64,000 bases of DNA from an uncultured SAR86 cluster bacterium (GTDB lineage: Bacteria; Pseudomonadota; Gammaproteobacteria; Magnimaribacterales; AG-339-G14), in the NCBI GenBank assembly GCA_902616715.1, contig CACMTR010000001.1, positions 248,001 to 312,000 on the forward strand. The letters are read 5' to 3'. The notes below the pieces were generated by a model, which was given only the letters and a program-made list of their open reading frames with translations, was not told the origin of the DNA and did not search any database. Positions 61,110 through 61,481 of this stretch are shown piece after piece. Each line of letters opens with the position of its first letter. The first letter of the stretch is position 1. A program made the position numbers and the translations under genes.

Positions 61110-61186
61110 CGGGGTGTAGCGCAGTCTGGTAGCGCGCCTGCTTTGGGAGCAGGATGTCGGGGGTTCAAATCCCTCCACCCCGACCA
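61110..61186 (+). tRNA. tRNA-Pro(TGG)
   Basis: CGGGGTG/CACCCCG acceptor, TGG anticodon, encoded CCA. Confidence 0.97.
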
Positions 61187-61260
61187 TTTAATTAGGCATT
61201 TATGTGTGTTAAATTTAACCTAATCATTAACTATGATTTTTCAGGGAAGAGAAGATAAGA

Positions 61261-61348
61261 ACTCCCGGTTTCTAAACGGTAGAATTCTTATTTTTATGCA
61301 TGGATGCAGATAAATAAGTTACAGGTTCGACTCCTGACCGGGAGTCCT
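61261..61348 (+). ncRNA. tRNA-like element / derived or decayed tRNA-Arg(TCT) copy without a recognisable anticodon arm
   Basis: 8-bp acceptor ACTCCCGG/CCGGGAGT, D-like arm TTCTA-AACGG-TAGAA, long A/T hairpin 61287-61318, T arm CAGG-TTCGACT-CCTG; ends TCCT rather than NCCA. Confidence 0.65.
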
Positions 61349-61404
61349 AGAACTAACTCACAACAAGACTAATCAAATCCTTTTATATAGAATAAGCACA
61401 TATT

Positions 61405-61481
61405 CTCTCGGTAGCTCAGCTGGATAGAGCATCTGCCTTCTAAGCAGAGGGTCGCAGGTTCGAATCCTGCCCGGGAGGCCA
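61405..61481 (+). tRNA. tRNA-Arg(TCT)
   Basis: CTCTCGG/CCGGGAG acceptor, TCT anticodon, encoded CCA. Confidence 0.97.

Follow-up and report, generated by a model that had tools for sequence, protein, structure and literature searches.

A tRNA-shaped element in which a hairpin replaces the anticodon arm

The 64,000-nucleotide (nt) stretch of contig CACMTR010000001.1 analyzed here (hereafter, the window), from an uncultured SAR86 cluster bacterium, carries between its tRNA-Pro(TGG) and tRNA-Arg(TCT) genes a tRNA-shaped element (positions 61261-61348, beginning ACTCCCGGTTTCTAAACGGTAGAATTCTTATT) in which, based on sequence and folding, the anticodon arm is replaced by one AT hairpin. We propose that it encodes a non-decoding structured RNA, derived from tRNA-Arg(TCT) and equipped with its own 5' leader, that acts as a tRNA mimic, and give this explanation as a whole a probability of about 0.45. 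Sequence comparison indicates that the element very probably does some job outside translation, and most likely it is a duplicate of tRNA-Arg that was co-opted as a non-decoding mimic, since it is most closely related to the neighbouring tRNA-Arg(TCT). The top half of a tRNA was retained, i.e., a 7-bp acceptor stem, U8, A14, a D arm with GG and a T arm, and the anticodon arm was lost:

61242-61261, + strand: purine-rich leader CAGGGAAGAGAAGATAAGAA
61262-61268, + strand: acceptor stem, 5' strand, pairing with 61338-61344 (sequence, fold and alignment)
61270-61284, + strand: D-like arm, with U8 at 61269 and the loop GG at 61278-61279
61287-61318, + strand: AT hairpin at the anticodon-arm site, with outer stem CTTATTT/AAATAAG and apical loop TGGA (4 nt); length and sequence vary among relatives
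61322-61336, + strand: T arm CAGG-TTCGACT-CCTG (fold and alignment)
61338-61344, + strand: acceptor stem, 3' strand, followed by TCCT, with no encoded CCA

The location and the coordinates of all arms agree with those given in an earlier note on this DNA, except that the note had drawn an 8-bp acceptor stem; seven pairs stand, and the eighth (A61261-T61345) holds in the window genome and is missing in its closest relative. The minimum free energy structure was the drawn cloverleaf (-29.3 kcal/mol; z = -3.87), a value equalled by none of 200 dinucleotide shuffles. Of the features of a functional elongator tRNA, the element has the 7-bp acceptor stem, the D arm and the T arm; it lacks a 7-nt anticodon loop, none being drawable on the 4-nt apical loop, and the 3' CCA, which the three neighbouring tRNA genes encode whereas the window has TCCT. 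ARAGORN called tRNA-Pro, tRNA-Arg and tRNA-His and no tRNA at 61261-61348, and Rfam (E values up to 5) matched the same three neighbours and neither tRNA nor any other family at these positions. The anticodon-less reading that the earlier note had offered thus survived tRNA calling, and its suggestion of an unusual tRNA isoform is excluded because the anticodon arm is missing. It had also pointed to a diverged tRNA-Arg duplicate from a match of 23 of 28 nt between the 3' part and tRNA-Arg(TCT). That count is correct, and tRNA-Arg(TCT) was again the highest-scoring ordinary tRNA of the family under covariance model R1, at 49-52 bits compared with 68-82 bits for the elements.

Conservation of the leader and fold among nine carriers

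Searching the family (40 genomes, with G000 the window genome) and the order (203 genomes) with DNA queries and covariance models revealed nine carriers, four in genus g1 (G000, G006, G004 and G005) and five in genus g4 (G009, G012, G015, G021 and G024). In every one of them the element sits between tRNA-Pro(TGG) and tRNA-Arg(TCT). The matching loci are from the SAR86 cluster bacterium/Gammaproteobacteria bacterium genomes MED-G141, AG-339-G14, AG-333-P02, AG-337-B16, AG-337-G20 and AG-337-E11.

Fourfold-degenerate sites of the flanking open reading frames were identical at 245 of 465 positions (53%) between G000 and its closest carrier, G006. Identity was much higher in the leader (20/20), the 5' acceptor strand with the D arm (23/23) and the T arm with the 3' acceptor strand (22/23) than in the hairpin (29/37) or the upstream spacer (36/55). 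For the core (leader plus acceptor, D and T arms; 65/66) the difference from fourfold sites gave a Fisher p of ~9e-16, in a pairwise test on few genomes that treats sites within a pair as independent. In G015 and G024, with 249 of 554 fourfold sites identical, the leader matched at 24/28, the 5' acceptor strand and D at 14/14 and the 3' acceptor strand with ACC at 10/10, with the region from the D loop to the T arm looser (33/48). Because identity was far above that of fourfold sites in both pairs, the leader and fold are, by this measure, under purifying selection, with no such constraint on the hairpin tip and CCA end.

In the alignment of the nine copies, T at position 8, A at 14, GG in the D loop and C at 74 were present in all, and the acceptor and T stems were 100% paired. 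Two-sided changes were detected in 6 of 22 pairs (acceptor, 1; D stem, 2; T stem, 2; hairpin, 1), amounting to 12 two-sided cells; shuffles averaged 3.5, and none of 500 reached as many. In this alignment, the D-arm registers of g1 and g4 are offset by one or two columns, and the unpaired D cells of g1 result from that offset; when folded individually, most sequences form the D stem. The earlier note had argued against simple decay, and indeed the fold is kept in the homologous tRNA-Pro to tRNA-Arg intervals of relatives, with substitutions that leave the arms paired.

The replacement hairpin ranges from ~33 nt in g1 down to 11 nt in G021, G009 and G012. No anticodon arm fits in the latter three, as the gap between their D and T stems is only ~14-15 nt. 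The CCA end is not conserved: discriminator-CCA is complete in G024 only, and A73-C74-C75 is kept in the g4 copies. A short ATG...TAA frame lies inside the hairpin of G000 and G006 (ATGCATGGATGCAGATAA; ATGGAAGCAATATAA; 61297-61314 in the window). It is impossible in the 11-nt hairpin and probably arose by chance, given that it is absent from the other carriers.

Leader, promoter and a possible mechanism

The leader is purine-rich in every carrier and 20-30 nt long (AGGGAAGAG, GGGGAAGAGG, GGGGGAG, GGGGGGAG), its sequence varies between lineages, and most of it stays unpaired in the fold predicted for the window. A -10-like hexamer precedes it in all carriers, and only the TATAAT of G004 and G005, kept just before the leader within a diverged spacer, exceeds shuffles (P ~0.02). 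The window's hexamer is:

61232-61237, + strand: candidate -10 box TATGAT (shuffle P = 0.24, weak alone; perfect TATAAT in the same place in G004 and G005)

In g4, complementarity between the leader and the 5' strands of the acceptor and D stems allows a competing hairpin. Among 500 dinucleotide shuffles of the leader, none (G024) or about one (G015) gave a hairpin as stable, and 3-7% did so for G021, G009 and G012, figures that may be flattered by leader start points chosen from conservation and putative -10 boxes. A leader switch as a general feature was rejected, being significant in g4 only. The predicted acceptor-pairing probability of leader plus element ranged from 0.01 (G024) through 0.23 (G021) to 1.00 (G000 and G015), so that on paper some of the copies are bistable.

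RNase P requires the stack of acceptor and T arm and not the anticodon arm. We suggest that the element's own promoter would yield a transcript of leader plus tRNA-like body, in which RNase P could recognise this stack and cut near 61261/61262. Through its elbow, the body may then engage tRNA-maturation factors, RNase P first, while being neither charged nor entering translation. In g4, the fold, and hence processing, could be switchable, given the competing hairpin that the leader can form there.

Several observations weigh against a mimic of this kind. The elbow is not strictly kept, as the TTCRA T loop is lost in G024 and position 56 is T in G015 and G021. The leader hairpin is unremarkable in g1, the window's genus, when compared with dinucleotide shuffles. 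A consensus scan found no promoter around the window copy, and promoter matches are weak outside G004 and G005. The element is also dispensable, since G003, G027 and G030 lack it. Recognition by RNase P is something we infer, and expression and processing are predicted only.

Distribution and evolutionary history

Beyond g1 and g4, the DNA and covariance-model searches found no element in the rest of the order, and matches in a class-wide sample of 369 genomes were limited at an E value of 1e-11 to G000 and G005. The lower-scoring model matches that were checked were ordinary tRNAs (Lys, Thr, Arg and Asn). A phage-borne element was also considered and rejected: of three scans of viral contigs, two were empty and the third gave 11 stretches, none matching the model. 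Within g1, G003 has an empty site, with tRNA-Pro joined directly to the promoter-like stretch that precedes tRNA-Arg; G027 and G030 of g4 are without the element, and in genera g2 and g3 its place is taken by protein-coding sequence. G001, G002 and G018 are uninformative on presence, because the tRNA-Arg/His pair is also missing there. As g1 and g4 are sisters in the tig tree (support 99/97), the simplest history is a single gain in their common ancestor followed by two losses.

Alternative explanations

The element could instead be a cis-acting processing or spacing module in a transcript running from tRNA-Pro to tRNA-Arg-His-tig, where it would fix the tRNA-Pro 3' end or the 5' end of the operon downstream and have no role in trans. 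Strict synteny in all nine carriers and the lack of a detected terminator in the interval (a standard scan found none around the window's copy) fit such a module. The promoter-like stretch between the element and tRNA-Arg is, however, conserved in carriers and non-carriers, and in G003 directly follows tRNA-Pro, and thus the downstream operon seems not to need the element; 20/20 identity of the leader would also be unneeded for a mere landmark. We consider this reading unlikely. A trans-acting small RNA, with the leader as base-pairing seed and the tRNA-like body as stability or 3'-end module, would explain why the leader is conserved as well as the body though mostly unpaired, but is distinctly unlikely in view of the leader's lineage-specific sequence and the search for antisense targets. 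At up to three mismatches and with the locus included, leader complements numbered 7 in G000 and 8 in G006, little above the 4 and 4 of the reversed control, and the single shared site that was examined resembles the leader itself and not its complement: within a TrmJ-like gene (and a MetK-like gene) it lies on the coding strand, the wrong one for such a target.

A charged tRNA-like RNA donating its amino acid outside translation would likewise retain the top half of a tRNA, and the A73-C74-C75 of g4 would suit it. Arginyl-tRNA synthetase reads the anticodon and seryl-tRNA synthetase needs a long variable arm, however, and the element has neither a long variable arm nor G3-U70, and most copies are without full CCA, making this very improbable. 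Least credible is a decaying pseudogene of tRNA-Arg. The loss of the CCA end and anticodon arm, the lost T loop of G024 and the relatives without the element are what decay might leave, but neither a neutral substitution rate nor uncompensated arm breaks were found; the core is 65/66 identical at near-saturated synonymous divergence, and changes in the stems are compensatory. For G000 and G006 decay is contradicted unless the two share the element through very recent transfer, which the divergence of hairpin tip and spacer speaks against.

For the tRNA mimic, a more ambitious formulation is that it represents a new class of regulatory RNA, an anticodon-arm-less tRNA-Arg duplicate that is leader-controlled, bistable in some lineages and regulates SAR86 tRNA maturation. 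This is possible, though we regard it as rather unlikely. If true, it would add a previously undescribed regulatory RNA class in SAR86, abundant bacteria of the ocean surface. Here a tRNA gene appears to have shed its decoding arm while selection holds the other half, in a small (~1.2 Mb) genome, and the syntenic nine-genome family offers a concrete case for asking what a tRNA top half with a conserved leader does by itself in a cell.

Comparison with known tRNA-like RNAs

Non-decoding bacterial tRNA mimics are rarely documented. One of the two nearest precedents by description is tRNA-Other (pseudo-tRNA) of Bacillus cereus, which is tRNA-derived, is not used in translation and belongs to a longer RNA that includes a 5' leader (PMC3399842). 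The SAR86 element is likewise a tRNA-derived RNA with a 5' leader, unable to serve as an ordinary decoder and predicted to be non-translational; it differs in having no anticodon arm at all, and B. cereus belongs to a different phylum. The other is the tRNA-like domain of transfer-messenger RNA (tmRNA), which is also the upper half of a tRNA with a helix replacing the anticodon arm (PMC3985003), the same arrangement as in the element. tmRNA combines G3-U70 and CCA with a tag reading frame and a large body, unlike the element, which is ~85 nt long and has C3-G70 and no conserved reading frame. tmRNA was rejected, as all nine copies have C-G as their third acceptor pair and neither ARAGORN nor Rfam called a tmRNA.

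The bacterial Y RNA YrlA (RF02553) is a noncoding RNA that mimics tRNA, as proposed for the element. It too was rejected: RF02553 was not matched at the element, a sub-threshold YrlA match maps to tRNA-Arg/His, and none of the 40 family genomes has the Ro/TROVE partner (PF05731). Human mascRNA and menRNA, tRNA-like modules with a reduced anticodon arm that tRNA-processing enzymes cut from the longer MALAT1 and NEAT1 transcripts (in part from PMC9777231, in part general background), provide an analogy only, being human and derived from long noncoding RNAs. Parts of a review of non-canonical tRNAs (PMC7609411) mention no tRNA without an anticodon arm. Literature searches, with most subscription papers outside their reach, found nothing linking SAR86 with tRNA-like RNAs or joining tRNA-like, anticodon-less and bacteria.

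Genomic neighbourhood

The gene order is folD (reverse strand), tRNA-Pro(TGG), the element, tRNA-Arg(TCT), tRNA-His, tig, clpP and clpX, the protein names having been assigned by recognising translations without a family search. The immediate neighbours, both identified by ARAGORN and Rfam, are:

61110-61186, + strand: tRNA-Pro(TGG), upstream neighbour in 9/9 carriers
61405-61481, + strand: tRNA-Arg(TCT), downstream neighbour in 9/9 carriers and likely parent

The stretch before tRNA-Arg (61367-61400 in the window; AAGACTAATCAAATCCTTTTATATAGAATA) occurs in genera throughout the family, in carriers as well as non-carriers, and its sequence suggests a promoter for the Arg-His-tig operon. The interval 61187-61404 (loci L061-L090) resembles a cargo slot in this SAR86 family, holding the tRNA-like element in g1 and g4, a short-chain-dehydrogenase-like coding sequence in g2, thioesterase-like or other coding sequences in g3, and nothing in G003.
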